This document shows, in pieces, positions 6,801-61,160 of a stretch of DNA of 64,000 bases. This stretch comes from Bifidobacterium asteroides (GTDB lineage Bacteria; Actinomycetota; Actinomycetes; Actinomycetales; Bifidobacteriaceae). Each line of letters begins with the position of its first letter. Positions within the stretch are counted from its first letter, which is position 1. A model generated the notes under the pieces. It did not search any database and was not told where the DNA came from. It was given only the letters and a program-made list of their open reading frames with translations. Made by a program: the position numbers and the translations under genes. The stretch covers positions 124,001 to 188,000 of the forward strand of contig NZ_QGLK01000005.1 in NCBI RefSeq assembly GCF_003202755.1, given 5' to 3'.

Positions 6801-7583
6801 GGTGGACCCGGCGGTCATCCGGTCCAGAATCCGGAGGCTTTCACCAAGCAGCTGGGCCGATGGCTCGATGAAACACCCTAGGACAATTTTCCGTTCGATG
6901 GTGAAGTCGCTGATATGCGGCGTGATCAGGGCCGTCATATCCTTGAACAACGATGAAGTTTCTGGTGTGCCGCCCTGATAATGGGAGGCGGAAAACAGGC
7001 GGTCAGAATCCAGGGTGATGCCTCGCTCGCGCATGGCCGAGATCAAGGCAGGATTAAGATCCACCTTGCCTGTGAATCTGATGGAGGCTCTGGAGGTTCC
7101 CTGTGTGCCCTCATCAATACGCACGGGGTAGAGCAGAACAGGCATGTCGCGCCCCTGCCAGGCAGCCACTCCCACCACCATGGAGAGCTGGGCAAAACCG
7201 CTGGCACGCTCTTTGGCGGCCTGATCGTCCAGGACCCGCTCCATGCGCCGGTGGGCCGCGCGCAGCATGCCGCGGTCTCGGAAGAGCGCATCCAGATGAA
7301 CCTGACCGCTGGCGAAAAGCTGTGCAATGCCTGAAGGATGCGCATGTGTCAGGTCCATCTGCGCGGCCAGCTGCGATACATTCTCCAGAGGAGTCAATCC
7401 CACCTGGTTCTGGTAGTCCTGGCGCCATCCTCGAATTCGCTCCAGAGGAGTCAGCGGGGCTTTGACCTCTTCTGCCGCAGGGTCGGAGGAGGATCCGGCC
7501 GCTGATGCCTGCGCATCCTCAGCCCGTTTGCCCTGTTCCGATTCCCCGGTGCTCATTACCGTCTCGCTCATCCGTCTACTCAC
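3861..7583 (-). CDS. Very large SF1-helicase-like protein (DUF4011 type) with degenerate ATPase motifs
   Basis: A 1240-residue cytoplasmic protein with the overall plan of actinobacterial helicase-related proteins. It has an N-terminal region with LTPLERIRGWRQDYQNQVG, a RecA-like core and a C-terminal block (GLDVALDYGYEQAPRIPLVV, then FTTEDLQYLGWSVMTVWS) resembling the Vsr/REase-like domain of the MTES_1575 family. Where motif I should read GxxGxGKT, the sequence is SVIVDEQTGRHSADD, with no P-loop lysine. The motif II position reads VIIDAGAHMP instead of the usual DEA-Q. It therefore looks like a pseudo-ATPase. It is coupled by ATGA overlaps to the FHA gene upstream and a small gene downstream. 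Function unknown. Confidence 0.65.
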   Translation of the reverse strand: MSRRMSETVMSTGESEQGKRAEDAQASAAGSSSDPAAEEVKAPLTPLERIRGWRQDYQNQVGLTPLENVSQLAAQMDLTHAHPSGIAQLFASGQVHLDALFRDRGMLRAAHRRMERVLDDQAAKERASGFAQLSMVVGVAAWQGRDMPVLLYPVRIDEGTQGTSRASIRFTGKVDLNPALISAMRERGITLDSDRLFSASHYQGGTPETSSLFKDMTALITPHISDFTIERKIVLGCFIEPSAQLLGESLRILDRMTAGSTGNDLLDALAGDQEASERLKGGSVPDYSPFDADPHSEFESGDVDNRVRYAAQLVATGHSVIVDEQTGRHSADDALAIASRCVTAGRTVLYVPCVVEEKRRFQHRLDAAGMADMALDLTDDQLGRVLDQRLIDAVGFKPGKASEHFDQVADELVGVRSRLTRYLGDLHGVDSSWGVSAYQTIQNLANIANMPTHPATRVRLGAATAHNLQPELNAWADKLERAAELGEFVIGPQDTPWFGATLVNENEAVDAYSRVVRLLQRLLPDTREQVKSTVETCGFPVPATVKDWGRQVVVLKNLRRVLDVFQPSIFERDIPAMIEATKAKADRKASGTNLGFWERRRLVKEAKSLLRPGAQVEDLHESLVVVSKQAEQWRTFVPHGGWPVLPPKLDVIIDTQESLIRDMTALDTVLDSTPAGGDLETMDFNKVEERLKALFDDHTALDTLPERCALEGEFNKAGLEGLVQDLRNRQVEGKAVRAELQLAWWTTVFDDIMRSSQIISNQDGSALSNAADRFSQVDAEHVASVGPMVAQESEKRLSELLFSRTQEANQLHTMLAGNPGASLAVFQQAHPSILSAAKPIIIATPATLATRTNPTQLADTVIIDAGAHMPSIQVLTVLARARQVAVIAHRPTITSDGLLQLVDHLVPVTVKSRPSRRSIRLDAFLKDHGYGDLSVPVPDCREPGRVTLTRVEGAGVPVMATGLVESSQQEVATVVDMLKRKAGSFSLVPNSYLLTVVTLSATHRSRLGAELKSAAAKDRVFAKFLRHVRIVGIDEVCGARATDVILTLGFAKTTHGRLLQQFGDLEGEGGKGMLLDALVLPDRNLDIVAAFSADDLEDDRIHQPGPRLLKDLLTWVEHPDAEPARPEQAEQSTNVLFRDLAQRLRTRGLDVALDYGYEQAPRIPLVVGLKNKPYALAVLTDDAEFMHTQSTRERHRFTTEDLQYLGWSVMTVWSVSAFVNPDKEAERIVARLADIYQQAR

Positions 7584-38445: not shown

Positions 38446-41400
38446 ACTTCAATCCACGCTCCCGTGAAGGGAGCGACCTTACGCTCTTGTCTGTTGTAGC
38501 TTCCCGCGTCTATTTCAATCCACGCTCCCGTGAAGGGAGCGACCCAATGTTCGCCATGGCCGATTGCGGGAGTGTCTTATTTCAATCCACGCTCCCGTGA
38601 AGGGAGCGACCTTTTCATCCAAGGTGGCACACTCGCGGTTCGGATTTCAATCCACGCTCCCGTGAAGGGAGCGACCTGGGACCAATCATCAGAGATGGTG
38701 TCCTCTAACTATTTCAATCCACGCTCCCGTGAAGGGAGCGACATACAGACATTTAGACAACGCATGCAACGTACTACATTTCAATCCACGCTCCCGTGAA
38801 GGGAGCGACGCGTCTGGTCGCGGTCTTTTCTGCCTCGTTGCGATTTCAATCCACGCTCCCGTGAAGGGAGCGACGTGGTCGTATCAATCAGCGAGTTGGT
38901 CTCAGCAATTTTAATCCACGCTCCCGTGAAGGGAGCGACCACCAGCGAGGCCGACCTCTACCAGTCCCTGATATTTCAATCCACGCTCCCGTGAAGGGAG
39001 CGACCCATGTTCCTACGAGGTCTTTGCCTATGCCAAAATATTTCAATCCACGCTCCCGTGAAGGGAGCGACACTATGCGGGCAACGTCACGGATGTGGAC
39101 GCTAAATTTCAATCCACGCTCCCGTGAAGGGAGCAACGCGCGCCGTAGGCGCGGACAACGTCTACCGGTGATTTCAATCCACGCTCCCGTGAAGGGAGCG
39201 ACCCCTGAGTGCCTCCGTGTACGCGTTGGCCTCGCCGTTTCAATCCACGCTCCCGTGAAGGGAGCGACGTGTTCGTGGCGTTGTTGAAATTCCCTACGGT
39301 TGGATTTCAATCCACGCTCCCGTGAAGGGAGCGACGATGGCGCCCCAAATCTGCGACCCCAGGTTTCTATTTCAATCCACGCTCCCGTGAAGGGAGCGAC
39401 CCGAATGTATCCGTCATCCACACTGAAAAGTTTTATTTCAATCCACGCTCCCGTGAAGGGAGCGACACGCCAACGACGATCCGGACGGTGAGCTCACAGC
39501 CATTTCAATCCACGCTCCCGTGAAGGGAGCGACAACAGCGTAGTGCGACCCTCGCACACAGCATAAATTTCAATCCACGCTCCCGTGAAGGGAGCGACAT
39601 GGCATGGGAGACGGTGTGCGCGATGTCCGTGTCATTTCAATCCACGCTCCCGTGAAGGGAGCGACCTCTCGGACCTGACTGGGAGTACCACTGGCTCAAA
39701 TTTCAATCCACGCTCCCGTGAAGGGAGCGACCCGACAACGAGGCCCTGAACCTCATGCAGGACAAATTTCAATCCACGCTCCCGTGAAGGGAGCGACGTT
39801 GCATTTCCCGACGTTCGTTTCATTATTTTTGACATTTCAATCCACGCTCCACGCTCCCGTGAAGGGAGCGACTAGCGATGACGAATTTATTTCAAATCGA
39901 GATGGAATTTCAATCCACGCTCCCGTGAAGGGAGCGACCGGGCAGCAGCCAATAGCCCCGGCAGACTGTCAATTTCAATCCACGCTCCCGTGAAGGGAGC
40001 GACTCGGCGTTCGCGAAGAACACCTCGGTCGGTATCATTTCAATCCACGCTCCCGTGAAGGGAGCGACACACGGGGATCGCGGTCAGGGCCACCGTGAGC
40101 AAATTTCAATCCACGCTCCCGTAAAGGGAGCGACGTGCGAGCTTGTAGATGCCGGTGATATGGTAATATTTCAATCCACGCTCCCGTGAAGGGAGCGACG
40201 CGGGTCGCCGCAGCTGTGTCCGGCCATGTGATATTTCAATCCACGCTCCCGTGAAGGGAGCGACGGCATTCTTGGCCCCCTATGGGGCTTGCAGACTATT
40301 TCAATCCACGCTCCCGTGAAGGGAGCGACCGTATATCTTTAATGCGGCTAAAAACGATGGACAATTTCAATCCACGCTCCCGTGAAGGGAGCGACCCGCC
40401 TCCCATATCACGGTGTTCGATGCCGGCGGATTTCAATCCACGCTCCCGTGAAGGGAGCGACTGCGTGATGTGGCTGACGGCAGAAGCTTGGCGGCATTTC
40501 AATCCACGCTCCCGTGAAGGGAGCGACGCCCCTGGTGGCTGATAATCCACGTGAATACGTGATTTCAATCCACGCTCCCGTGAAGGGAGCGACGACATCT
40601 ATGCCCCGTTCGTATCGAATTCATCGAATTTCAATCCACGCTCCCGTGAAGGGAGCGACAGAAGGCAGCACATCATGCGTCACCCAACGCTGATTTCAAT
40701 CCACGCTCCCGTGAAGGGAGCGACCTGATAATCCACGCGAATACGTCGAATTCGACCTATTTCAATCCACGCTCCCGTGAAGGGAGCGACCCCCTTTGGC
40801 CTGCCACTGGGCCAAGGTGTCGGTATTTCAATCCACGCTCCCGTGAAGGGAGCGACACCTTCATGGGGATCCTGGCGGCATTCCGGGCGATATTTCAATC
40901 CACGCTCCCGTGAAGGGAGCGACCCTGTCGGTTGGCTAGGTTGGTGTTTTGCTGGTTATTTCAATCCACGCTCCCGTGAAGGGAGCGACCAGGCTTTGCA
41001 TGGACCTTAACCGTCGTTCCTTGAATTTCAATCCACGCTCCCGTGAAGGGAGCGACGCAAGCTTGGACCTAATCGAGCCCGCACGACCGGATTTCAATCC
41101 ACGCTCCCGTGAAGGGAGCGACACAGAACGCACGGACCGGTGATCATAAACGCTGGTGATTTCAATCCACGCTCCCGTGAAGGGAGCGACATATCCAGTT
41201 TGCTTGTGCCGCCAAAAGTCTCAAATTTCAATCCACGCTCCCGTGAAGGGAGCGACCTGCGCGACCTGGTAAGGCAGACCGTCCTAGAAATTTCAATCCA
41301 CGCTCCCGTGAAGGGAGCGACGAGCAGCCCGTCCATGGGCTCCCAGTGACCCCAGAATTTCAATCCACGCTCCCGTGAAGGGAGCGACGTTTCTGTAACC

Positions 41401-44400
41401 CTCTCGACCGCCAATGAGGACGATTTCAATCCACGCTCCCGTGAAGGGAGCGACAGGCCGGGTGGGGCACCAAGCCCATTATCTACATATTTCAATCCAC
41501 GCTCCCGTGAAGGGAGCGACGGACGGCTGTATCGAGTTTCTTCTCTGGCGTTTGATTTCAATCCACGCTCCCGCGAAGGGAGCGACCTGGTTGCCGGCGT
41601 AATGGTCACCGTACCGCGCGATTTCAATCCACGCTCCCGTGAAGGGAGCGACCTGGCAGCCTCATTATTACAGTAATAAGTAAAAAATTTCAATCCACGC
41701 TCCCGTGAAGGGAGCGACGACCGGTCACCAGCCATGAGGGGTCGCCTCCCTGATTTCAATCCACGCTCCCGTGAAGGGAGCGACACGATCCTAAGGGATC
41801 GCACCTATGATGAGACGCATTTCAATCCACGCTCCCGTGAAGGGAGCGACCTTTGTCTCTCGCTCCCCGACAGCACCTATTGGGCATTTCAATCCACGCT
41901 CCCGTGAAGGGAGCGACCTGATGATCGTCGTATTGCGTACCTTAATTACTAATTTCAATCCACGCTCCCGTGAAGGGAGCGACCCAGTCCGACGATCCTA
42001 TCGACTGCCGCCTTTGAATTTCAATCCACGCTCCCGTGAAGGGAGCGACAAGCCAGCCGACGACATTATCCCACGCACCGTGATTTCAATCCACGCTCCC
42101 GTGAAGGGAGCGACTTGGCTGACAAGGATAAGGCCATTGCTCTTATAATTTCAATCCACGCTCCCGTGAAGGGAGCGACTCATATGCTCATAGCTGGTTT
42201 CCAGTTTGGACCGATTTCAATCCACGCTCCCGTGAAGGGAGCGACGTTCTTCTGGAGCACAACGTCTCCCTTGTATGCATTTCAATCCACGCTCCCGTGA
42301 AGGGAGCGACAGCTGGTAGAAGACGCATCTGCCATCCGGAAGCAATTTCAATCCACGCTCCCGTGAAGGGAGCGACTCAAGCTGAACCGGATAGCGATCA
42401 AGCAGCTGAAATTTCAATCCACGCTCCCGTGAAGGGAGCGACCCGGCCGGATGGATCTGACCAATGCACCAGTCAGATTTCAATCCACGCTCCCGTGAAG
42501 GGAGCGACGATTCCCGATCCGACCATCAGCAAGGAACAGGCCATTTCAATCCACGCTCCCGTGAAGGGAGCGACCAGACTGAGCGTGCTACAGTAAGTAG
42601 CACATAAAATTTCAATCCACGCTCCCGTGAAGGGAGCGACGATAAGCAATGAGCAGCAAAAAGCAAGTAGATACATTTCAATCCACGCTCCCGTGAAGGG
42701 AGCGACACCGGCTGCCTTGACCATGCCAGCAGCACGCCGATTTCAATCCACGCTCCCGTGAAGGGAGCGACTGTTGTTTGACGTACTGGTAGGAGTCGTC
42801 GGCCAATTTCAATCCACGCTCCCGTGAAGGGAGCGACCGCAGTAATCCTTGCCAGTGGCCGGATCGTGCAGATTTCAATCCACGCTCCCGTGAAGGGAGC
42901 GACGACATGGGTAGCCGATAGAGTAGGTCCAGCGTTTATTTCAATCCACGCTCCCGTGAAGGGAGCGACACACCCTGAGTGATCCCATCCCACACGCCTG
43001 TGAAATTTCAATCCACGCTCCCGTGAAGGGAGCGACTTGCGCCGGACAGTGCCATTCTGACATACAATTGATTTCAATCCACGCTCCCGTGAAGGGAGCG
43101 ACTAGCAGACCTTATGAAGTACGCTCGGGACAGTCTCATTTCAATCCACGCTCCCGTGAAGGGAGCGACGGGTCACCAAGACAGTGTCCAGCCGCCGGAT
43201 GCGCATTTCAATCCACGCTCCCGTGAAGGGAGCGACGCATGGCCGACAAGGTTGAGCAGTTCAACGCGCAATTTCAATCCACGCTCCCGTGAAGGGAGCG
43301 ACTCGTGATACCAAGTGCACTCCAAATCAGGCTCAGATTTCAATCCACGCTCCCGTGAAGGGAGCGACCATTGGTGTACAACGGCGACAGCCCTTCCGGC
43401 ATATTTCAATCCACGCTCCCGTGAAGGGAGCGACGTATCCGCTTTAGAACAGTAGGCTATTGCCTCTGATTTCAATCCACGCTCCCGTGAAGGGAGCGAC
43501 GTCTGGACGACCTGTACGGCAGGCTTGACGATCCATTTCAATCCACGCTCCCGTGAAGGGAGCGACAACATAAACCAGTTCTATGCGCTGAATTTTAGTA
43601 ATTTCAATCCACGCTCCCGTGAAGGGAGCGACATGCTCAGCACGATACGTGCCAAAAGCCCTAGATATTTCAATCCACGCTCCCGTGAAGGGAGCGACCT
43701 GTAGTGTATAGGTCCACACCCACGCTCTTGCATTTCAATCCACGCTCCCGTGAAGGGAGCGACACCGCAGGCGCAGACCTACACGGAGGCCCTCAAATTT
43801 CAATCCACGCTCCCGTGAAGGGAGCGACCCGGGGTCTTGTACACGTGCAACTCGTCGCAGATATTTCAATCCACGCTCCCGTGAAGGGAGCGACCTTTGG
43901 CCGCGTCGGCTGGCGTTGCACCAGCATTGATTTCAATCCACGCTCCCGTGAAGGGAGCGACACAACGCTCTGAACAGCATCAAAAAGGTCGCGGGATTTC
44001 AATCCACGCTCCCGTGAAGGGAGCGACCTCTTCCAGCATGGCGGCAACCCGGTCCTGCGCTGATTTCAATCCACGCTCCCGTGAAGGGAGCGACCATCGG
44101 TCAGATACACCCCGGGGGCGTTTCTGTCATTTCAATCCACGCTCCCGTGAAGGGAGCGACCCCATGACATCGATCCTTTCTCTCATGTTCCGATTTCAAT
44201 CCACGCTCCCGTGAAGGGAGCGACGTCTTCGATTTCCTTTTTGGTGTATCTGTCCTCAATTTCAATCCACGCTCCCGTGAAGGGAGCGACGAGAGAGCAG
44301 GAGCTTGCCCCTTGCGTCTGATAATTTCAATCCACGCTCCCGTGAAGGGAGCGACGATATATCTGTCAGGATTCGGCAAACGCCACAAGATTTCAATCCA

Positions 44401-44685
44401 CGCTCCCGTGAAGGGAGCGACAGTGGCTTGACCTGGTGTACAAGGCCTATGGGGTATTTCAATCCACGCTCCCGTGAAGGGAGCGACCTTTGTATCGAAG
44501 TTCTTGGCTATCATATCAACGATTTCAATCCACGCTCCCGTGAAGGGAGCGACGTGTGCAAGGCTGCTTTTTTAATCCCGGGGAAGGATTTCAATCCACG
44601 CTCCCGTGAAGGGAGCGACTGGCATCATTCGCCACAAAGCTCGGCTTGTCCCTATTTCAATCCACGCTCCCGTGAAGGGAGCGAC
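38446..44685 (-). CRISPR. Type I-C CRISPR array, 95 repeats and 94 spacers (hand count)
   Basis: Repeats are 32 bp. In the transcribed (minus) sense each starts GTCGCTCCCTTCACGG and ends GAGCGTGGATTGAAAT, with the 7-bp stem CGCTCCC/GGGAGCG; spacers are about 33-35 bp, with a mean period of 66 bp. This is a I-C repeat, matching the cas genes. The ATTGAAAT end gives the crRNA 5' handle, so transcription is leftward, the leader is at 44686+ beside cas2, and the oldest spacers lie near 38446. Most repeats are identical. Variants occur at 38446 (ACTTC start), 38908, 39106, 39237, 40103 and 41555, and the repeat at 39834-39872 carries a 7-bp internal duplication. Confidence 0.99.
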
Positions 44686-45133: not shown

Positions 45134-45424
45134 CTATAACATCATCACTTTGTCAACAGGGATATGGCGCCTAACCCCATAGTAATGGATTCTGCGCGAG
45201 TATCTGGCACCCAGATCGTACAAGATCAAGCTGTCTTCCTGAGGATTGATCAACGTCATCAGCCGCTGTTTTAGCAGCTCACGGTCGGCGGGAGTGACCA
45301 CGCATTCGAACACACTATTTTGCACACGCTGACCAAACTTCATGCACTCATGGCCGACCTGTCGCAATCGTCTCCGGCCAGCAGCCTCACAGGTGTCGAC
45401 ATCATAAGCGACAACCACCATCAT
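45134..45424 (-). CDS. cas2: CRISPR-associated endoribonuclease Cas2
   Basis: A 96-residue, full-length Cas2 that forms the Cas1-Cas2 integrase. The ferredoxin fold begins MMVVVAYDVDTCEAAGRRRL with the conserved first-strand Asp, followed by QVGHECMKFGQRVQNSVFEC and DSLILYDLGARYSRRIHYYG. It is the last gene of the operon, 12 bp after cas1, and faces the leader. Confidence 0.97.
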   Translation of the reverse strand: MMVVVAYDVDTCEAAGRRRLRQVGHECMKFGQRVQNSVFECVVTPADRELLKQRLMTLINPQEDSLILYDLGARYSRRIHYYGVRRHIPVDKVMML

Positions 45425-45436
45425 TATTCTTTCACC

Positions 45437-46468
45437 CTACTTCCAAAACATCGGCGGATAGGCATCCATATCCCCACGTATGTATCTAGCCAACAATAAT
45501 GCCTGCACATAGGGCACCAACCCCCATGGCACTTTCTCCTTAAGAAAGGGGTGCATGATTTGCTCATTTTTGCGCTTCTGCCAGGCTGAAAGCACCTGCT
45601 TCCTCCCCTTGTCGTTAAGATAAGTTCCTCCGTTCTCTCTAATCTCGAAATCTCCGGCCTTAATTACATGAGTGTTGACCAGAGACAAAGCCAGCCGATC
45701 CGCAAAGACAGGGCGCAATTCCTCAACAAGATCCAGGGCCAGCGAAGATCTGCCTGGCCTGTCTGTATGCAAGAATCCAACATAAGGATCAAGGCCAACA
45801 CCTTGAAGTGCAGAACGACAATCTCCGGAAAGCAGCACGTAGATAAATGAGAGCAGGGCATTCATCCTATCCATCGGTGGCCTCCGGCTGCGCTGCTCGA
45901 AGTAGAAATCATCCTTATTTGTGAGGATGAGATCATCAAAGGCATAAAAGTAGCACTTCGCAGCCTCCCCCTCCACACCACGAACCGAATCCGCTGTTAG
46001 GCAACCATCCAATTCCTGCAAGGCTGCCAACAGACGGGCACTCTGCTTTTTGACACGAGGCACATTGATCCGTAAAGCGTGGTCTCGGGTAGCGCGCTCC
46101 AACACCTGTCGCGCATTGAATATCTTGCCCATGACGAACGAGGCTGCAATCGAGCAAACCTCATTATCGTCATCGGCCATGTGATACTGACGGCGTCGCA
46201 AAAGCACATTTCTGTTAGCTTCTCCAAGTACTGACCCGTAGTATTTGCCCTGCGGAGAGTAGAAGGAGAACGAGACCCCAAATTCATTACACTTGCCCAG
46301 CAAGGCCGGCGAGGCACCCTTGTAGCTGAAGCAAAGAATAGACTCCAAGGCACGCAGGGGTATCCGTCCCATGACGTGGTCTCCCTCATTCACCACAACA
46401 TTCTCCTGCTCCAGGGAAAGGTAGGCATCCTCTGTAGTGACAAACAAGGTGTTCAACATCTGTCTCAA
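45437..46468 (-). CDS. cas1: CRISPR-associated endonuclease Cas1, type I-C
   Basis: A 343-residue integrase that, with Cas2, inserts new spacers at the leader end. The N-terminal beta domain (LNTLFVTTEDAYLSLEQENV, IPLRALESILCFSYKGASPA) precedes the helical domain with metal ligands Glu in SVRGVEGEAAKCYFYAFDD, His in YVGFLHTDRPGRSSLALDLV and the downstream acidic DLVEELRPVFADRL. All are intact, so adaptation should be competent. It lies between cas4 and cas2, the standard I-C order. Confidence 0.97.
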   Translation of the reverse strand: MRQMLNTLFVTTEDAYLSLEQENVVVNEGDHVMGRIPLRALESILCFSYKGASPALLGKCNEFGVSFSFYSPQGKYYGSVLGEANRNVLLRRRQYHMADDDNEVCSIAASFVMGKIFNARQVLERATRDHALRINVPRVKKQSARLLAALQELDGCLTADSVRGVEGEAAKCYFYAFDDLILTNKDDFYFEQRSRRPPMDRMNALLSFIYVLLSGDCRSALQGVGLDPYVGFLHTDRPGRSSLALDLVEELRPVFADRLALSLVNTHVIKAGDFEIRENGGTYLNDKGRKQVLSAWQKRKNEQIMHPFLKEKVPWGLVPYVQALLLARYIRGDMDAYPPMFWK

Positions 46469-46527: not shown

Positions 46528-47247
46528 CTACAACTCTTTCAAGGTCTTTCGAATGTAGTCAGCGGCGGAAGACTTATGCACAAGTTCAGGCAGGCAGATA
46601 TCCTTCAATGAGCATGACCGGCAACCCGTTTTCGGCTTCACCTTTGGAGTATGGCCTCGTCGATAAAGGTCCCGCATCTCCGACAGATCATCGGCCACCT
46701 GAGCGCGAAGTTCATTGTTGAGTTCAACCACTTCACGGCGCTTGGTCTGCTGGTAGAACAATGCCCCCTGGCTGATGCTGCAGGAGAGCATTTCTTCCAA
46801 GCACATGGCTTCGCCGCACAATTGCAAACGATCAGCATTATTGACCTTGCTGGAACCATGTTTGTACTCAATAGGATAGGGTTTCCACCGCCCTCTTCTG
46901 CCTGTCAATGAAACCCCATCCTGAGCCGCGTGAAATTCGACAATGTCACAATCTCCGACAACTCCTAACCTTCTGGAGAATACGCGCAGATCGCGCAGTA
47001 TCAAGGTGTCGCCGCGTTTTTCAGAAGCGTGGTAGTCGTGAGCACGTCGGTGTTCGAAGTCTCCTGCATATGTTCTGGTGTTGTCACGCCACTGCTCCTC
47101 TATGTGGATCAATGCCCATTGGCGCTTGCAGAACTCAAAATGCTGAATGCCAGACAGGGTCAGCCATTCATCCTCAGGATATTCGGCCGGCCCTGTGGCC
47201 ATGGACAAGTCCATGGAATTATCACTCATTGTAGTGTTCTCAGCCAT
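46528..47247 (-). CDS. cas4: CRISPR-associated exonuclease Cas4
   Basis: A 239-residue RecB-type nuclease that trims prespacers and selects for the PAM before integration. It has the iron-sulfur-ligand Cys in GIQHFEFCKRQWALIHIEEQ, with the remaining three in the C-terminal cluster GCRSCSLKDICLPEL, and the nuclease motifs DIVEFH and YPIEYKHGSSKVNNADRLQL. It is about 20 residues longer than average from an N-terminal polar lead. It overlaps cas7 by 8 nt. Cas4 makes selection of a TTC PAM likely for acquired spacers. Confidence 0.95.
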   Translation of the reverse strand: MAENTTMSDNSMDLSMATGPAEYPEDEWLTLSGIQHFEFCKRQWALIHIEEQWRDNTRTYAGDFEHRRAHDYHASEKRGDTLILRDLRVFSRRLGVVGDCDIVEFHAAQDGVSLTGRRGRWKPYPIEYKHGSSKVNNADRLQLCGEAMCLEEMLSCSISQGALFYQQTKRREVVELNNELRAQVADDLSEMRDLYRRGHTPKVKPKTGCRSCSLKDICLPELVHKSSAADYIRKTLKEL

Positions 47248-48172
47248 CCACCATTTCAGTCAGTTCGACCGACTGCGGAATAGCTGAAGTATCAACGGTC
47301 ACATCGTAATCCGAGAAGCTGCGCGGTGTCTCAACTTCAGGCTTATGGGCCACATGAATGCTATCGAACAGCTTATAGGAGGGAGCATCGCCAAGATCGT
47401 TGCTGTGCTTGAAGACATAGAGCTTGCGAACGGCCATCTTGCCCCTAGCAGCAGAATGATCAAACTCGAACATATTGAGAATGGCCTGCCAAAGCATGGC
47501 CAGGTCTTCCTCGCTAAATCCGGTGGTCTTTTGTGCTAGCTTTGCATTCACATAGCCATCAGCACGGTATAAACCGTAAGGAACAATTGACTTGTTGCCC
47601 ATCTCATTGTTCTTGTTCTCTTGGTCTTTTTCCGTAGTAATGGCCACCCTGGTGATGGTGACCGACTGTGGGAAAATCGGATCGATGGACCTCGAGAATC
47701 CAAGTTGCACAGGGCCACGCACCTGGCCACAGGCCAACCCGCCCTTGACGAAGGTGGTCATCACCGCGCCAAAGGTCCTGATATCGAAGAAATTGGAACA
47801 CATGTAATCGAGGATTAATCTATCCAGCTCGCCATTTTCCTTCTTGGCCTTCTTTAGGGTCTTCCCGATACTGTCCACATCGGGGTCCCCATTGACGCCA
47901 ATCGCTTTCAATGCCTCAGCATCGAGGCGGTTCAGCGGAACCTGCTGCTTAATATAAATACGCCAGGGCGCCTTATCCCCGTTAATCAATTGCACATAGT
48001 TACGTATCTTCCTCTTTAGGCAAACATCAGTAACAATTCCAATCCCGGTCTCACTATCGGTTCGTGGCATATTGCCTGATTCCGGATCTCCGTTGGGATT
48101 GCCATTCTCAACGTCATAGAGAATGGAAAAATCGTACCTATTTTGGATAGCCTTGGCAGTTTGCTCACTCAT
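47240..48172 (-). CDS. cas7: Cascade backbone subunit Cas7 (Csd2), type I-C
   Basis: A 310-residue protein that polymerises along the crRNA as the backbone of the I-C Cascade. The family start YDFSILYDVENGNPNGDPES with NMPRTDSETGIGIVTDVCLK is textbook Csd2, and ADSFDIRTFGAVM-type text (NFFDIRTFGAVMTTF, CGQVRGPVQLGFSRSIDP, SITRVAITTEKDQENK) follows. Overlaps of 8 nt with cas8c and with cas4 show tight translational coupling. Confidence 0.97.
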   Translation of the reverse strand: MSEQTAKAIQNRYDFSILYDVENGNPNGDPESGNMPRTDSETGIGIVTDVCLKRKIRNYVQLINGDKAPWRIYIKQQVPLNRLDAEALKAIGVNGDPDVDSIGKTLKKAKKENGELDRLILDYMCSNFFDIRTFGAVMTTFVKGGLACGQVRGPVQLGFSRSIDPIFPQSVTITRVAITTEKDQENKNNEMGNKSIVPYGLYRADGYVNAKLAQKTTGFSEEDLAMLWQAILNMFEFDHSAARGKMAVRKLYVFKHSNDLGDAPSYKLFDSIHVAHKPEVETPRSFSDYDVTVDTSAIPQSVELTEMVDG

Positions 48173-48566
48173 TTACAATTCCTTCTTCCTTGTTAGTTTC
48201 CTTATTGTCGTCCTTGTTCTTGCCCTTGTAGCGCTCCTGAGTCTCGAAATAATATCCAAGCTGGAAAGCACCCTGTTCAGGCAGCGATAACCTCGTCGGG
48301 AAGTTCTCGCCGATTCTGTTCATCAGATCAGCGATACGCTTGGTATAGTAAATGCGCGTTCCCGTCGGCAGTTTTCGCAGGTGCTTTTTCGCCAAATCGC
48401 CCAAGTGCGGGAAAACCACGGCTGGCATGGTCGATGCATTAGTAAAGAACCGGTCACCAATCGTGGTATTGATACCAGGATTCGCAGCATGTTGTATGTC
48501 CTCATACAGGGCGAACAGCCGTCCTAGGACATAAGGCACATTGGTGCTTTCTTTGTTGATGGACAC
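48165..48566 (-). CDS. cas11c: Small subunit Cas11c, from an internal start in cas8c
   Basis: Inside cas8c, a perfect Shine-Dalgarno AAGGAGG (48581-48575) sits 8 nt before an in-frame GTG at 48566-48564. Translation from there gives 133 residues (start VSINKESTNVPYVLGRLFAL) ending at the cas8c stop. Type I-C systems are known to make the Cas11 small subunit from such an internal site in cas8c, and the size fits. The protein is mostly helical, with FALYEDIQHAANPGINTTIG and FPHLGDLAKKHLRKLP. Confidence 0.75.
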   Translation of the reverse strand: MSINKESTNVPYVLGRLFALYEDIQHAANPGINTTIGDRFFTNASTMPAVVFPHLGDLAKKHLRKLPTGTRIYYTKRIADLMNRIGENFPTRLSLPEQGAFQLGYYFETQERYKGKNKDDNKETNKEEGIVNE

Positions 48567-49958
48567 TTGCAATACCTCCTTAGGGCATTGGTTGTTTTGA
48601 TGACGAAGAAAATACGCTTTGATGATTGCCGCCTTGGCGCGGGGAACTTCATGCTCAACGCCAATGCGGTTCTCGACAGCAGTCAGGAGCGACGTAGGAT
48701 AGGGCGCACCTGTAAGAATGGCCTTAAATAGGTCGGAAACTGTACGGGGGGAAGCTGGAATCCTCTTTTTCCCACCAGCGGCAGATGGCACAGTTTGCGC
48801 AAGGAGCATCCACACAGGTAGATCGTGACGTTTATCAAATTTCGGTCGTTCGATATCCAAATCCGCATAATGCCGACGTACATGTTCCATGTAACTGCCA
48901 TAAGTGTCCTTCAAGAAGAAGGACACCGAAAGCCTGGCCGCATTAGGGGCAAGCCCAAGGATGTAAAAATGCTCATCCGGATTAAGCCTGACACCATTGA
49001 AATCAACGGGGTTCCCCTTAGACAAGGCTGTGACAGTGGCTATTAGATCCTGTTGGTCAACCCCTGCAGCGCCTTCAATGCACAAGTTCATCTCAGCTGA
49101 GTACTCAGCCTGTCCTGACTCTGCCCAGGAAACAATCGTCAAGGAACCATCATTGACAGTTCTTGTATACTGATCGTCTTTCAGCACAGTATTTAAGGCT
49201 GTAGTATAAGCAAAGGCTTCACGTTTGCTCATAGGAGCATTTTGATCCTGCTTTTTGTTGTAGGAAAGATATGCTGGCGCGTTAAAAGACACTAGTGCTG
49301 ATCCACTGGATTGTGCGTTGCGGACGCCTCTGATATTTGGATGAGTAAGAGCAGGGACGACAGCTTGGCCTGAAACAACACTTTGCATGGTTTCAGAACC
49401 AGCGGCCGTTTCACCACTGTCATCGTCATCCGAAGAGAACCATGAATCCCAGTATTTCTGCATGGTTCGGTTTTTAGATAAAGGTAAGCCGTTAAAGCAG
49501 AGGACAAAATTACCGGTTAAGGCCTTCTTCCAGTCCCCTTCGCCTAATTTCTCCTCGACAACTGCCGCTTGAGGCGTCCGGGAAAAGAAAGCGAGCACTG
49601 CACGGGCTTCATCATCTTCGGCGTTTGCAAGCACCTGACGATGCAATTCAGCAGCAGCTGCAAAGCGCTTGGCCGCCTTGTCTGTTGCACCGTTGGCATC
49701 TGCACCTAGCAGGTAAGAGGAGTTGTCGCAGAGGAAATTGGCCTGAATTTTCACCGTTCGTAATGCATGTGCCGGAACAGGCATCATACGTCTGAACTGC
49801 TTGTTCTTTGTCAATGTCCCAAACGGAATGACATGGGTTATGGCCCCGTCATCCGCTATGTCCAGTCCCCACGGAACATTTTCAACGCTGTATCCATACC
49901 GCGGTGCCTGACCAGCCTCCACCAGCCGGTCGTAAAGTCTGACTAGTTCGCCAATCAT
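48165..49958 (-). CDS. cas8c: Cascade large subunit Cas8c (Csd1)
   Basis: A 597-residue type I-C large subunit, which recognises the PAM and helps open the target duplex. It begins MIGELVRLYDRLVEAGQ, and the family text GYSVENVPWGLDIADDGAIT, CDNSSYLLGADANG, FVLCFNGLPLSKNRTMQKYW, LVSFNAPAYLSYNKKQDQNA and FYILGLAPNAARLSVSFFL is present. The C-terminal ~133 residues are also made separately as Cas11c. It overlaps cas5 by ATGA (49955-49958) and cas7 by 8 nt. Confidence 0.97.
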   Translation of the reverse strand: MIGELVRLYDRLVEAGQAPRYGYSVENVPWGLDIADDGAITHVIPFGTLTKNKQFRRMMPVPAHALRTVKIQANFLCDNSSYLLGADANGATDKAAKRFAAAAELHRQVLANAEDDEARAVLAFFSRTPQAAVVEEKLGEGDWKKALTGNFVLCFNGLPLSKNRTMQKYWDSWFSSDDDDSGETAAGSETMQSVVSGQAVVPALTHPNIRGVRNAQSSGSALVSFNAPAYLSYNKKQDQNAPMSKREAFAYTTALNTVLKDDQYTRTVNDGSLTIVSWAESGQAEYSAEMNLCIEGAAGVDQQDLIATVTALSKGNPVDFNGVRLNPDEHFYILGLAPNAARLSVSFFLKDTYGSYMEHVRRHYADLDIERPKFDKRHDLPVWMLLAQTVPSAAGGKKRIPASPRTVSDLFKAILTGAPYPTSLLTAVENRIGVEHEVPRAKAAIIKAYFLRHQNNQCPKEVLQVSINKESTNVPYVLGRLFALYEDIQHAANPGINTTIGDRFFTNASTMPAVVFPHLGDLAKKHLRKLPTGTRIYYTKRIADLMNRIGENFPTRLSLPEQGAFQLGYYFETQERYKGKNKDDNKETNKEEGIVNE

Positions 49959-50611
49959 GAGCTCATCCTCGGATCAGTTGCATCCAGCACGCCGTTAATC
50001 AACTCAGCTCTGAAAAACATAGGTTGCGGGTCCGCAGGGTCTCGATAGTCCATGTCGTATAACATGTACCCCAGATCCCGATGACCATTTTCGAATCCCT
50101 TGGGCTGACCCTTATCGACATCCCAAAGCCGAAAATCGACAGGGAACTCCCGTGTTCCGAAATAAGGGTGGTGATAGTACTGCCCGTTCTGAGCTCGTCT
50201 ATTGAACATGCTGATGAACTTAGCCGGCGTATCCCCTGCAGCAGCTTTGCTATTCATATCAAAATGTGCCTCAATCACATAGTGAACATCCCGCAGAATG
50301 GTGGAGGCACGCTGCTGAATGTCTGAGGAAGCATAGATCGCGCTGTCTTTGGACGGATCATTGATCATCGACCGGATAGTATCGGCCGATATCACGCTGC
50401 TGACCTCATTGCGACGAACACTGGTGAATCTGATGGGATTCATAACCACGATCCTGTCAATCCGCCAGATCATGCCCGGATGCCAGAACACAGCCTCCAG
50501 AATCCCACGTGCCGCCGATGGCGTCATCACGTCGTACGAGACTCTCTCTACTTTCATTTCTGGTCTGGTGAAGAGGGCGTACGGACCCCAGACCTCAAGT
50601 TGTACTGTCAT
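49955..50611 (-). CDS. cas5c: CRISPR-associated protein Cas5 (Cas5d), crRNA-processing endoribonuclease
   Basis: A 218-residue Cas5d. In type I-C, which lacks cas6, this protein cuts pre-crRNA at the base of the repeat stem and caps the 5' handle. The start VQLEVWGPYALFTRPEMKVE, then RVSYDVMTPSAARGILEAVF and WHPGMIWRIDRIVVMNPIRF, and the C-terminal YFGTREFPVDFRLWD are typical. It would also process the solitary repeat upstream of the operon if that repeat is recognised. It is 45 bp downstream of cas3. Confidence 0.97.
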   Translation of the reverse strand: MTVQLEVWGPYALFTRPEMKVERVSYDVMTPSAARGILEAVFWHPGMIWRIDRIVVMNPIRFTSVRRNEVSSVISADTIRSMINDPSKDSAIYASSDIQQRASTILRDVHYVIEAHFDMNSKAAAGDTPAKFISMFNRRAQNGQYYHHPYFGTREFPVDFRLWDVDKGQPKGFENGHRDLGYMLYDMDYRDPADPQPMFFRAELINGVLDATDPRMSS

Positions 50612-50656: not shown

Positions 50657-52801
50657 TCAATACAGCAGCCCGTTTTGAGGCAACTGATCTTCATCGACCT
50701 GCAGACCTGTAGCACTGTCGTACATGCCCATGTCCAGCAGAACAAATGCATCGTCATCCGACCTGGCACCGTGCTCAGCCAAAGCGGATATCTTCCCAGC
50801 CTCTTTGAGTCTGTCCAGCTGTCTAGGCCAGACATTGACCGCGTACCGGCCCAATCTGCGGAACAGCCCTCGCGTATAGCAACGAGGATCAGTCAGCTGG
50901 GCACACAGGGTGCTCGCTTCTTCATTGACCGGTATATAGACGGGAACAGTTGGCGTATCAATCAGCTTGAAAAGCTCAGCAATCTGAGCGAACGGCATAC
51001 GGCATCCTGATATTCCACGCTCATGAGCCTTAAGAATCTGACGCTGATCGAGACTCTCGTCCCCTCGCATTCCAAAGAGCCTGGTGAAATATTCATGAAT
51101 CGCTTTTGAAGATGCCAGGTCAGCATTGCCTTTCCGTACCAACTCGAAAGCCAACATATTCTGTTTCAAAAACGAAACCTGGCCCTCATCAGTCGAAAAA
51201 ACATGAACCAATGAGGCATCCGCTTCACGTCGACCTTCTCTATTGCAACGGCCAGCTGTCTGAAGAATCGAATCAAGACCAGTCTGTTCCCTATATGCCT
51301 CAGGAAAATCGACATCCACTCCGGCCTCTATCAGAGACGTGGATACGACCCTGCAAGATTCTCCCTGGGTGAGGCGATCCCGTATCTGCTTCAGAAACCG
51401 TTCCCTGTCATAGGCACATTGCAGTGTAGTCAAGCAGAAAGTACCGTCTTCAAAGCCATGCTTTCGCACCGCTCCGGAGATGTACTGCGCCTCCTTACGT
51501 GTGTTGACCACGCACAGAACCTGATTATGGCCTTCTACAGCTTCAGCCATCTCATCCATGTTCTTATGACCGTCATCGACGATTCGGTTGCGCCTGAATT
51601 CCGAGCGCTCCTTTTCGCTTAATGGTGCAATTTCAGGGATGGTCAGATTCGGGCATTGAAGAGCCTGAGCAAACAGTTCCTGCAAGGCCGGCTGTGTTGC
51701 TGTGCACAGCACCGCGGTGACGTGATAGTTGGCAACCAGTTCAGCTATGGCCTGTACACATGGTTTCAGCTGAGGCAAGGGCAAGGTCTGGGCCTCATCG
51801 AAGATCACAACAGAGTTAGCTATGTTATGAATCTTCCTGAGTTTAGAGGCCTTGTTGGCGAACAGGCTTTCGAAAAACTGCACAGCAGTGGTTACGATAA
51901 CCGGCATGTTCCAGTTCTCGGCCGCAAAACTGCGATGCAAATCGTTTGCTGTAAGCTCGTCTTCCTCTTTTAATTGGAAAGCAGCATCTGCATAGTGTGG
52001 TAGAACCGCATCTGACCCAAGGAGGGTTTCGAATTCCTTTACCGTCTGGTCGATGATTGACGTGTAGGGCACGACGTAAATAACCCTATCCATATGGTGT
52101 GTTTTGGCGTGTTCAAGCGCGAACGTAAGCGAGGAATCAGTCTTGCCGCCGCCTGTGGGAGCGGTCAGCGTGTATAGACCTGGATTCCATTCAGGATCGG
52201 CCCCGTGAGTAAGGCAGTCACGCAATATGGCATTGCGTTTTTCATTCAACGACGTACTCGCCTTCGCCGACAGGAAGGACTCAGCCCTGCGCTCCATGAT
52301 TTCAGCAAGCGCCTTGATTCTGATTGACTGATGCTCACGCAGCTGCCCAGCCAGCGCTTTACTGATCTCACGTAATTCCTGTGGAGGCGGCATGATCGAT
52401 TTGGACAGACGATCGGGACCGAGATCCTGAAGCAGCTGCTCGAGAAATGGTGATTCATCGCGCTCTACTTTGCCATTGACAAAGAACTCAGCATCCAGCC
52501 GATCCGCATCCACTAGCGCTGATTCGTGCATACGGATACGCATCATGTCCGAGAAATGTGAGCCCAAAGAAGGAAGCGGCTTGACTTCGGGAAGAGTGAT
52601 CTCATCCTTCCAATGCGATGCATCAGGGTTGGGACGCTTCATTCTGCCGACCAAGGTGCTTGAATTCTCGGTATCAATCTGATTGCCAAAATCCGGCAAA
52701 CCAGCATGATGCCCTGCAATGGCAAATGTGGCTTCTTGAAGATGGAGCTTATAGGCTACTTTCATCCCGTATGAAGAGTGATTGACACTACTGCTCATCA
52801 T
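50657..52801 (-). CDS. cas3: Cas3 helicase-nuclease, main fragment (second half of HD domain plus helicase)
   Basis: A 714-residue protein with intact SF2 helicase motifs: Walker A LTAPTGGGKTDSSLTFALEH, DEAD-box-like VVIFDEAQTLPLPQ, CTATQPALQELF, and motif V/VI TSLIEAGVDVDFPEAYREQT with QTAGRCNREGRREA. The N-terminus starts inside the HD nuclease: VNHSSYGMKVAYKL (third HD His) and AIAGHHAGLPDFG (His-His motif). The first half of the HD domain is a separate frame (52788-53036), overlapping by 14 nt. An AGGGAGG box lies 6 nt before the second ATG (52798). Cas3 is normally one protein in type I-C. Confidence 0.93.
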   Translation of the reverse strand: MMSSSVNHSSYGMKVAYKLHLQEATFAIAGHHAGLPDFGNQIDTENSSTLVGRMKRPNPDASHWKDEITLPEVKPLPSLGSHFSDMMRIRMHESALVDADRLDAEFFVNGKVERDESPFLEQLLQDLGPDRLSKSIMPPPQELREISKALAGQLREHQSIRIKALAEIMERRAESFLSAKASTSLNEKRNAILRDCLTHGADPEWNPGLYTLTAPTGGGKTDSSLTFALEHAKTHHMDRVIYVVPYTSIIDQTVKEFETLLGSDAVLPHYADAAFQLKEEDELTANDLHRSFAAENWNMPVIVTTAVQFFESLFANKASKLRKIHNIANSVVIFDEAQTLPLPQLKPCVQAIAELVANYHVTAVLCTATQPALQELFAQALQCPNLTIPEIAPLSEKERSEFRRNRIVDDGHKNMDEMAEAVEGHNQVLCVVNTRKEAQYISGAVRKHGFEDGTFCLTTLQCAYDRERFLKQIRDRLTQGESCRVVSTSLIEAGVDVDFPEAYREQTGLDSILQTAGRCNREGRREADASLVHVFSTDEGQVSFLKQNMLAFELVRKGNADLASSKAIHEYFTRLFGMRGDESLDQRQILKAHERGISGCRMPFAQIAELFKLIDTPTVPVYIPVNEEASTLCAQLTDPRCYTRGLFRRLGRYAVNVWPRQLDRLKEAGKISALAEHGARSDDDAFVLLDMGMYDSATGLQVDEDQLPQNGLLY

Positions 52802-53036
52802 AGGCCTCCCTAATCATCCTCTGGAATTCCGCCGAATACTTGCCTATGTCATGAAGAAGGCCTGTATCCAGACCCATATCAGCCTGATCTTGGTCATACA
52901 GATAACCAGCCAGCCTGCCGGCGAAGGCTGCATCAAGGCATCCCGTCATTACCAGATGCTGCACGCAGACCTCGAAACCATGATCTTTTGAAGTGCGGGC
53001 CAGATACTCATCTACCTCGTCGCCTTCGGTCGTCAT
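52788..53036 (-). CDS. cas3: Cas3 HD-domain N-terminal fragment (frame-split from cas3)
   Basis: An 82-residue frame with the start of a Cas3 HD nuclease: EYLARTSKDHGFEVCVQHLV (first HD His) and the metal-binding GLLHDIGKYSAEFQRMI. It stops at a TAG (52790-52788) where the next block of the HD domain continues in another frame of the downstream ORF. A one-base shift would restore a single continuous Cas3. No classical slippery heptamer is visible. Either cas3 is inactivated by frameshift, or the two parts are made separately and assemble. It is coupled to the preceding 41-codon leader ORF by an ATGA overlap. Confidence 0.8.
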   Translation of the reverse strand: MTTEGDEVDEYLARTSKDHGFEVCVQHLVMTGCLDAAFAGRLAGYLYDQDQADMGLDTGLLHDIGKYSAEFQRMIREAYDEQ

Positions 53037-53204: not shown

Positions 53205-53233
53205 AATATAAACCTATTAATGAATAATGTCAA
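53205..53233 (-). promoter_or_regulatory. Promoter of the cas operon
   Basis: Minus-strand TTGACA (53233-53228), a 17-bp spacer and TATATT (53210-53205): a nearly perfect sigma-A-type promoter, predicted to start transcription near 53198. It is the only strong promoter in the region upstream of cas3. Confidence 0.85.
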
Positions 53234-53270
53234 TTCGGTTTTTGGTTATTTAGAAAGGACTATATATTAC
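53234..53270 (+). promoter_or_regulatory. PAM and protospacer-like target of the solitary guide RNA, abutting the cas -35 box
   Basis: On the plus strand, TTC (53234-53236), the type I-C PAM, is followed by GGTTTTTGGTTATTTAGAA. Positions 1-5, 7-9, 11, 13-17 and 19 match the guide encoded at 53388-53370. Mismatches are at 6, 10, 12 and 18; complementarity is lost after 19. The PAM touches the -35 hexamer (53228-53233). Bound Cascade would cover the promoter, and the partial match should not license Cas3 cleavage. An AT-rich imperfect palindrome (53261-53283) lies within and beyond the target. Confidence 0.75.
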
Positions 53271-53323: not shown

Positions 53324-53357
53324 GGTATAAAGGCTCATCAGCCTAGGCCGATGAGCC
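53324..53357 (-). terminator. Intrinsic terminator of the solitary guide RNA
   Basis: In minus sense GGCTCATC (53357-53350) pairs with GATGAGCC (53339-53332) around the inner palindrome GCCTAGGC with one mismatch on each side, and is followed by TTTATACC. It ends the guide transcript before the cas promoter. Confidence 0.8.
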
Positions 53358-53413
53358 CTAGCCTTATTCTACTAAACAGCCAGAAACCATTTCAATCCAC
53401 GCCTTGCGGCGAC
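53332..53413 (-). ncRNA. Solitary crRNA-like RNA gene upstream of cas3 (CreR-like autoregulatory guide)
   Basis: In minus sense: a 25-nt shortened repeat (53413-53389) keeps the leading GTCGC and the full TGGATTGAAAT handle, but has a reduced stem, CGCC-gcaa-GGCG region, in place of the 7-bp array stem. A 31-nt guide-like segment follows (53388-53358, starting GGTTTCTGGCTGTTTAG), then an intrinsic terminator instead of a second repeat. The guide's first 19 nt match, in register, the PAM-flanked site at the cas promoter. No spacer in the array shares this sequence. Its own promoter was not identified. It fits the CreR class of cas-repressing RNAs described in other CRISPR types. Confidence 0.75.
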
Positions 53414-53599: not shown

Positions 53600-54261
53600 C
53601 TACAAAGTACGGCGGCGGTACTCCATAGGAGGCATACCTACTTTGGATTTAAAAGCGCTGCAAAAGACGGACAGCTTGGAATATCCGCAATTCAGAGCAA
53701 TCTGTTCGACAGGCTTGGAGGAATTGCTGAGCATACTTCGAGCCGCATTGATTCGCGCGTCCATAACATAGGCATGAGGCGTATAACCGGCTGCCTTTTT
53801 GAATACCCTAATGAAGCTAGGCTCACCGAGACCAGTCATAATGGCAAGCTGCTGATTGGCAATATATGTCCATCACCATTTGAATGTCATGGCCGCTCCT
53901 GTCAATGTCACCCTGCCCCACCGGCGCATCAACGAACCAGGTCAGAATGTCCGTCACATATTTCGCAAGCATTGTTTCGGATAAATAGGTGCCGGACCGA
54001 AATATGTTGTAACTGGTCTTTAGCGGATGCAATGCCTTTTCATCCCGCTCCAGGGCGAAGATCGGCCCTCGCTTGGCAATTATCTGCTGATAATAAAACC
54101 GGGCGGCCTGACCATCGAAGTGCATCCAAAGTATCTCTGTCGGCCCCACAGTCTGATAGTGAAAGTATTTGGCAGCAATCCGAAAGTACAAACTGACCAC
54201 CATGGGCAACGCCCCGCATAGCATTGCTACGCGGTGTGAGCTCGCCTGATTTCAAATACAT
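53600..54261 (-). pseudogene. Frameshifted AraC-family transcriptional regulator
   Basis: Three overlapping frames spell one AraC protein. 54261-54180 gives a cupin-side fragment (GVAHGGQFVLSDC); 54180-53860 continues YFHYQTVGPTEILWMHFDGQ in a second frame; 53855-53600 gives the double-HTH (LGEPSFIRVFKKAAGYTPHA, RINAARSMLSNSSKPVEQIA, GYSKLSVFCSAFKSKVGMPP). The join near 53858 needs a one-base change (ATATAT-T-GCCAAT), and another shift is needed near 54180. The gene is therefore inactive as read. It lies 200 bp from the solitary guide RNA, and its former targets are unknown. Confidence 0.8.
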
Positions 54262-60276: not shown

Positions 60277-61160
60277 ACATGCACGATACCTTGCTGCAAT
60301 ATAGTTATATCTACGAGCGCAGCAAACACCGATGAGTGCGGTGTCTTTGCGGAAACGCCGAGTCAGTACGAGCTACCATTATTCACTAGCTACCGCTTCC
60401 CATCAGGGACACCTATCCGTGGGGCAACAATAATCAGTGAGGTTTAGACGACAACATCGTGCACACACGGGGCATGCCTGTCTTTGTTCTGAAAGATAAA
60501 GCGGTACTCCTTACAAATCCCTCCAGTCAGCATAGGAACCTTCCAGTCCCTAGGCCTTGCCTCAGACATAAGGGCTCATGTCTAGGAAATCAGCTTGAAC
60601 AGTCCGTTGGAAACAGGCAATCGCCTCAATGCAGTAAATCGCCCGACCCGGCACCACCATCAACCAGTACCTGTGCCAGCTTTTAAGGGTCCCGCCCACA
60701 GCATAAGGGAGAAAATACCGGCGTGGCTATGGTGGTCGGGCTTCTTGCCATGAGTATTATGGCAACAAACCTCAGCCGCAGGATCCCATAGCAGCGGCCA
60801 CTAACACTTCGCACGAGTAAGAGGCCGGACGACTCCCCCAAGACAAGTTCGGCCATTCGGGTGGCCCAGCAATAATCCCAAGTAAAACCTGGGCCACCCA
60901 TCTACTTTTTTATACCTTTTCATGAATGGGGTCCAATCATGTTCAGGTTGTAAGGGCCGCCTGTCCCTCAAGCAGCTTTGAAGCAACCCAATGCACGCCC
61001 TTCTTAATCGTACTGAAACCAGATACAGATCGTATGCCTGTGTGGGACAAGACAAGTGAAGGCCATAACCAAGCCTGACGTACCTAGAATCATTTCAATC
61101 CACGCTCCCGTGAAGAGAGCAATCACCCGAGTACGAGCAGTTGATGAGATCTATCCATAA
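60277..61160. other. Gene-poor region downstream of fas
   Basis: About 880 bp holding an orphan CRISPR repeat (61092-61123) and otherwise no supported gene. Minus frames at 60683-60901 and 60801-61055 have no start signals or recognisable motifs. Confidence 0.35.
61092..61123 (-). repeat. Orphan type I-C CRISPR repeat
   Basis: A 32-bp copy of the array repeat with three differences, all in the 5' part of the transcribed sense (ATTGCTCTC instead of GTCGCTCCC). The 3' half, including the ATTGAAAT handle, is perfect. In minus sense the following 34 nt begin GATTCTAGGTACGTCAGG. It is 16 kb from the array and 8 kb from the cas operon, with no second repeat. Confidence 0.85.

Follow-up and report, generated by a model that had tools for sequence, protein, structure and literature searches.

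A solitary crRNA-like element upstream of a type I-C operon

The window (the whole stretch of DNA that was analysed, 64,000 nucleotides long) comes from a bee-gut Bifidobacterium of the asteroides group, whose close relatives are B. sp. 7101, B. apousia, B. choladohabitans and B. asteroides. Its minus strand carries seven cas genes in the order cas3-5c-8c-7c-4-1-2, which match the profiles of I-C, the most abundant subtype in Bifidobacterium (PMC7284854), with a CRISPR array downstream:

52788–53036, minus strand: cas3 part 1, start of the HD domain, 82 aa
50657–52801, minus strand: cas3 part 2, rest of the HD domain and helicase, 714 aa, overlapping part 1
49955–50611, minus strand: cas5c (Cas5d)
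48165–49958, minus strand: cas8c
47240–48172, minus strand: cas7c
46528–47247, minus strand: cas4
45437–46468, minus strand: cas1
45134–45424, minus strand: cas2
38446–44670 (approximate limits), minus strand: CRISPR array, more than 90 repeats GTCGCTCCCTTCACGGGAGCGTGGATTGAAAT

The cas3 gene is split into two overlapping frames within the HD domain, between HDIGK and NHSS (junction ATGATGAGCAGTAG), which makes full interference activity uncertain. All six examined genomes of the asteroides-like group share this split, down to 64% identity, and cas3 is one frame in other bifidobacteria; we favour translational coupling or a programmed +1 frameshift over a recent mutation.

About 350 bp upstream of cas3, on the cas strand, lies a crRNA-like element consisting of three parts:

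53389–53413, minus strand: degenerate, shortened CRISPR repeat with stem CGCC/GGCG, loop GCAA and an intact 11-nt 3' handle TGGATTGAAAT
53358–53388, minus strand: guide segment of 31 nt, of which nucleotides 1–17 (53388–53372) match the cas promoter
53327–53357, minus strand: 11-bp terminator-like hairpin (53357–53332) followed by TTTAT, in the place of a second repeat

The solitary repeat reads GTCGCC-GCAA-GGCG-TGGATTGAAAT on the minus strand (53413–53389), as compared to GTCGCTCCC-TTCAC-GGGAGCG-TGGATTGAAAT in the array; its stem is only 4 bp long, and both have the same 11-nt handle. The whole element folds better than 200 of 200 shuffled versions (z = -2.96). A scan of the element against Rfam returned only CRISPR-DR9, below threshold (16.5 bits for a gathering score of 45), and was not retained. 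The description in an earlier note, made from the sequence alone, of a single degenerate repeat with an intact handle and a shortened stem, a 31-nt guide-like segment and a hairpin with TTTAT replacing a second repeat, all on the cas strand and upstream of the cas promoter (element at 53413–53327, promoter at 53233–53205), stands as it was given. As to the intrinsic terminator that it proposed as the 3' end, the hairpin is conserved in relatives, where the T-runs that follow it are longer; the T-tract in the window is weak, and a terminator scan with a threshold of 5 T in 8 did not call the hairpin. No clear promoter for a small RNA was found at the element, and the promoter-like TTGAAA/TAGAAT inside it was dismissed as chance.

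The genome contains 94 copies of GCGTGGATTGAAAT: 92 in the array, one in the solitary element and one at 61092–61105 of the window. The last copy belongs to a second solitary, near-intact I-C repeat (about 61092–61124, minus strand; GATTGCTCTCTTCACGGGAGCGTGGATTGAAAT, then GATTCTAGGTACGTCAGGC) downstream of a fatty-acid-synthase-like gene, for which no TTC-flanked target with up to 2 mismatches was found in the genome. Just upstream of the crRNA-like element, the stretch 53600–54224 (minus strand) can be read by eye as a possible remnant of an AraC-type regulator gene, with a helix-turn-helix-like reading.

The guide matches the promoter of its own cas operon

The decisive feature of the analysis, which was absent from the earlier note, is a target for the guide in the cas promoter:

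53237–53253, plus strand: protospacer-like target GGTTTTTGGTTATTTAG, 14/17 to the guide, with mismatches at positions 6, 10 and 12
53234–53236, plus strand: PAM TTC, adjoining the -35 box of the cas promoter
53205–53233, minus strand: cas promoter, with -35 TTGACA (53233–53228), a 17-nt spacer and -10 TATATT (53210–53205)

Guide positions 1–17 (GGTTTCTGGCTGTTTAG) match the plus-strand target, the mismatch at position 10 being additional to those at 6 and 12, the significance of which is discussed below. Shuffling the region 20,000 times never produced a TTC-flanked match this good, and TTC is the I-C PAM (5'-TTC-3') in Bifidobacterium (PMC7284854). When the 2.17-Mb genome was searched with the guide, the cas-promoter target was the sole such site, with no second target.

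Guides and promoters change in step

The earlier note had proposed to look for conservation of the element upstream of cas3 in related strains, and five more genomes from this genus-level group do show the layout. Four close relatives display the same arrangement before cas3 (a shortened or full repeat, a guide and a hairpin), the hairpin in sister species being GGGCTCATC...GATGAGCC or a close variant, and a more distant member of the group, L039, the cas3 of which is 64% identical, has its own element before cas3 with a different hairpin. Among these relatives, the repeat stem, the handle and the terminator are kept, the last at a fixed position, while the guide changes. Because guides and their flanks change quickly, a first genus-wide DNA search gave two partial matches only, and no signal emerged until guides and promoters from the same locus were set against each other.

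In close relatives, guides and promoters change in step. Within the first 15 nt, mismatches are found only at positions 6 and 12 in both B. sp. 7101 (guide GGTTATGTTGTTATT, target TTC-GGTTAAGTTGTAATT) and B. apousia (guide GGTCTTTTGATTATT, target TTC-GGTCTATTGATAATT), and at 6, 12 and 15 in B. asteroides (guide GGTTACGTAGTTATT, target TTT-GGTTATGTAGTAATA); the PAM of L038 is TTT. In B. choladohabitans (L037, oriented coordinate about 1992), the match needs a 1-nt guide bulge after position 5 (guide GGTCT-T-CTGACCGTTCT, promoter GGTCTCTGACTGTTCT), and this extra base is either a sequencing error or a tolerated bulge at a flipped-out position.

This covariation was measured by comparing 12 guides with 12 cas promoter regions from Bifidobacteriaceae, in all combinations. 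Own pairs match at 12.0 of 13 positions on average and swapped pairs at 7.3 of 13, and none of 100,000 permutations equalled the true pairing, a figure that is not a strict probability since some guides are kin by descent (those of L042 and L047 are nearly one guide). The seed-side match amounts to 11–13 of 13 in 11 of the 12 loci, L037 joining them only with its bulge, and the cas promoter is the best target of the guide in nearly every species.

Which guide positions matter was assessed in 53 actinobacterial I-C loci by looking for perfect matches at 13 of the first 15 positions when one pair of positions six apart is ignored. Skipping the pair (6,12) yields perfect matches in 11 loci, any other pair in none or one, and reversed-target controls in none; most of our other scans skipped positions 6 and 12 in detection, and this skip-pair test and the unfiltered first search of the window are independent of that choice. 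Likewise, when all 64 triplets before the match were tested over the same 53 loci, TTC was found in 11 loci, TTT in one and the others in none. In type I effectors, every sixth guide base is flipped out along the Cas7 filament and is not read. The 6/12 pattern, with its 6-nt periodicity, thus points to Cascade on DNA as the expected reader of the guide, positions 6 and 12 being those that the Cas7 filament would leave unread, rather than to a simple antisense RNA.

A second layout and a wider distribution

In other Bifidobacteriaceae the element adopts a second layout (layout B), in which it occupies the space between cas3 and cas5c and runs antisense to the operon, with its hairpin near the end of cas3. 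The guide then matches the cas5c promoter, whereas in the layout described above (layout A) it matches the cas3 promoter. In L047, for example, the guide TTACTAGCTTTTGTCTA has the target TTC-TTACTTGCTTTAGTCTA, which overlaps the -35 box of a TTGCTT/TATAGT promoter. Overall, the element is present in 13 of the 14 Bifidobacteriaceae I-C loci and a cas-promoter target in 12. L045 has lost both; L044 (Bifidobacterium, oriented coordinates 6857–7072) keeps the guide RNA gene but is missing both cas5c and the target, and we found no cas4, cas1 or cas5c promoter there either. We count these two natural losses in favour of cas-promoter regulation.

Beyond this family, we studied 19 I-C loci drawn across the phylum and 20 from two further families. 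These gave about 14 additional elements whose cas-promoter target is flanked by TTC or TTT; both layouts are represented, and a hairpin follows the guide in those elements that were read out. The phylum sample contributes 3 loci of 19 with element and target; the two families were picked because matches had been seen there, hence the fraction in them is not unbiased. The phylum scan gave 15 matches for 2 in the reversed-target control, and those in L073, L084 and L085 were judged to be chance since they lack a repeat-like stem or a promoter target. The earlier claim of a I-C CreR-like RNA in a bifidobacterium has therefore been strengthened by the promoter target, the PAM and the covariation, but it was drawn too narrowly, as such elements are confined neither to bifidobacteria nor to the site before cas3.

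A model for autorepression and its alternatives

Taken together, the element, its target, the PAM, the position relative to the promoter and the covariation support, at the level of sequence, a model in which the element is very probably an autorepressing, CreR-type guide RNA of the I-C subtype that acts via the cas promoter. A short transcript would span 53413–53327, Cas5c would cut back the shortened repeat so that only its 11-nt handle is left, and the 3' stem-loop normally provided by the next repeat would be replaced by the terminator hairpin. Cas5, Cas8 and Cas7 would then assemble on this RNA and bind the cas promoter via the TTC PAM and a partial pairing over some 15–17 nt that skips positions 6 and 12. 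Since the PAM side abuts the -35 box, we read the outcome as repression, that is, the bound complex would block RNA polymerase at the operon's own promoter. In I-B systems an 11-bp seed suffices for CreA, and spacers of up to 24 bp repress without interference or priming (PMC10989794). The pairing seen here falls within the range in which that effector represses without destruction or priming, and would be too short to trigger Cas3. As in known CreR systems, this would amount to negative feedback: when Cascade is occupied by array crRNAs or by anti-CRISPRs, repression would lift.

How the element arose is a separate matter from what it does. In B. apousia (L036) the stem is of full length, and a second, decayed repeat that lacks the handle (25/32) lies 67 nt further upstream, in array register, which suggests that a mini-array of two repeats was the probable ancestor of the element. 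The stem is 4 bp in the other copies of the asteroides group, which would hinder recombination with the array; similar repeat degeneration stabilises CreTA (PMC9458426). The opposition drawn in the earlier note between a stand-alone guide RNA and a decayed array thus survives only in its first half, as covariation, PAM and a fixed terminator speak for a guide RNA that nevertheless probably descends from such a decayed mini-array.

Four other readings were considered. The complex could sit at the promoter to activate or fine-tune cas transcription, and the layout A protospacer lies just upstream of the -35 box, which is a frequent activator site. However, contacts on the PAM side are expected to clash with sigma at the -35 box, the protospacer covers the -35 box itself in layout B (L041 and L047), and known CreR and CreA repress (PMC13131331, PMC10989794), all of which makes activation very unlikely. 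Less likely still is a functionless remnant of a CRISPR array: although the repeat is degenerate, the B. apousia locus keeps its array register and the other solitary repeat, at 61092, has no target, decay alone would account neither for guides that follow their promoters, with a PAM and the 6/12 pattern in many species, nor for a terminator held at a fixed place. Remnant origin is likely, in other words, but lack of function is not.

An antisense or trans-acting RNA pairing with the cas mRNA or its leader, instead of Cascade on DNA, would explain why each genome has a guide complementary to sequence near its cas genes, but the target lies upstream of the -10 box, hence outside the cas mRNA, its strand differs between the two layouts, and the TTC PAM and 6-nt periodicity argue for Cascade on DNA, leaving this reading with even less to recommend it than that of a remnant. 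The least probable of the four, which we regard as close to negligible, is a CreA-like antitoxin RNA directed mainly at a toxin gene, its match to cas being secondary. The same kind of RNA represses toxin genes in I-B, but here the genome holds no second matching site, no small toxin gene was recognised beside the element, and the preference for the cas promoter extends to nearly every species.

Returning to autorepression, the distribution described above leads us to favour, with some reserve, a broader proposal: that a distinct class of CreR is widespread in the I-C systems of actinobacteria, with one degenerate repeat and a terminator instead of a second repeat as the 3' handle. Its two recurrent sites would allow autorepression either of the whole operon (cas3 first) or of only the Cascade and adaptation genes (from cas5c on, cas3 being excluded).

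Significance and relation to known systems

RNA-guided autorepression of cas genes in the compact, Cas6-less I-C subtype, backed by strong comparative evidence, would make this look like a general strategy. It has several implications: (i) the single-repeat, terminator-ended form is a natural design for a stand-alone I-C guide, (ii) removal of one small element is predicted to increase endogenous I-C activity, which would be useful for editing in bifidobacteria, and (iii) natural guide-promoter covariation offers an experiment-free readout of the guide positions that are read by I-C Cascade.

Studied examples of CreR typically have the layout of a two-repeat mini-array, which is not essential to the definition. 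Several CreR sequence features are found here, namely, a repeat of the cognate subtype outside the array by the cas genes, a seed-side promoter match and a PAM; the two-repeat layout is not, since there is one repeat and a hairpin, and only B. apousia keeps a decayed upstream repeat. Shmakov et al. reportedly described, in NAR in 2023 (gkad495), crRNA-like elements or mini-arrays in which repeats stand alone in the neighbourhood of cas genes and the spacers match promoters in part.

Among other RNAs of this kind, the phage-borne Racr anti-CRISPRs (PMC10651486) are also solitary repeat units, but they are viral and form aberrant complexes, whereas the present element lies beside cas genes in every genome and has a guide that matches its target. 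CreA of the I-B CreTA system of Haloarcula resembles it in that a short partial promoter match guides Cascade, but CreA represses a toxin gene and the target here is the cas promoter. Finally, CreR is likewise a crRNA-like RNA from a degenerate repeat beside cas genes, with partial complementarity to the cas promoter and predicted autorepression (PMC13131331, PMC12737573). It is listed for I-B, I-E and V-A (PMC13131331) and attributed to type I and V-A generally (PMC12737573); neither review names I-C, and I-C cases may figure in the primary surveys (Liu 2023, Cell Host Microbe; Shmakov 2023). Relative to known CreR, what differs is the subtype, I-C, the single repeat, the terminator hairpin as 3' end and the two recurrent layouts, one of which is antisense between cas3 and cas5c.
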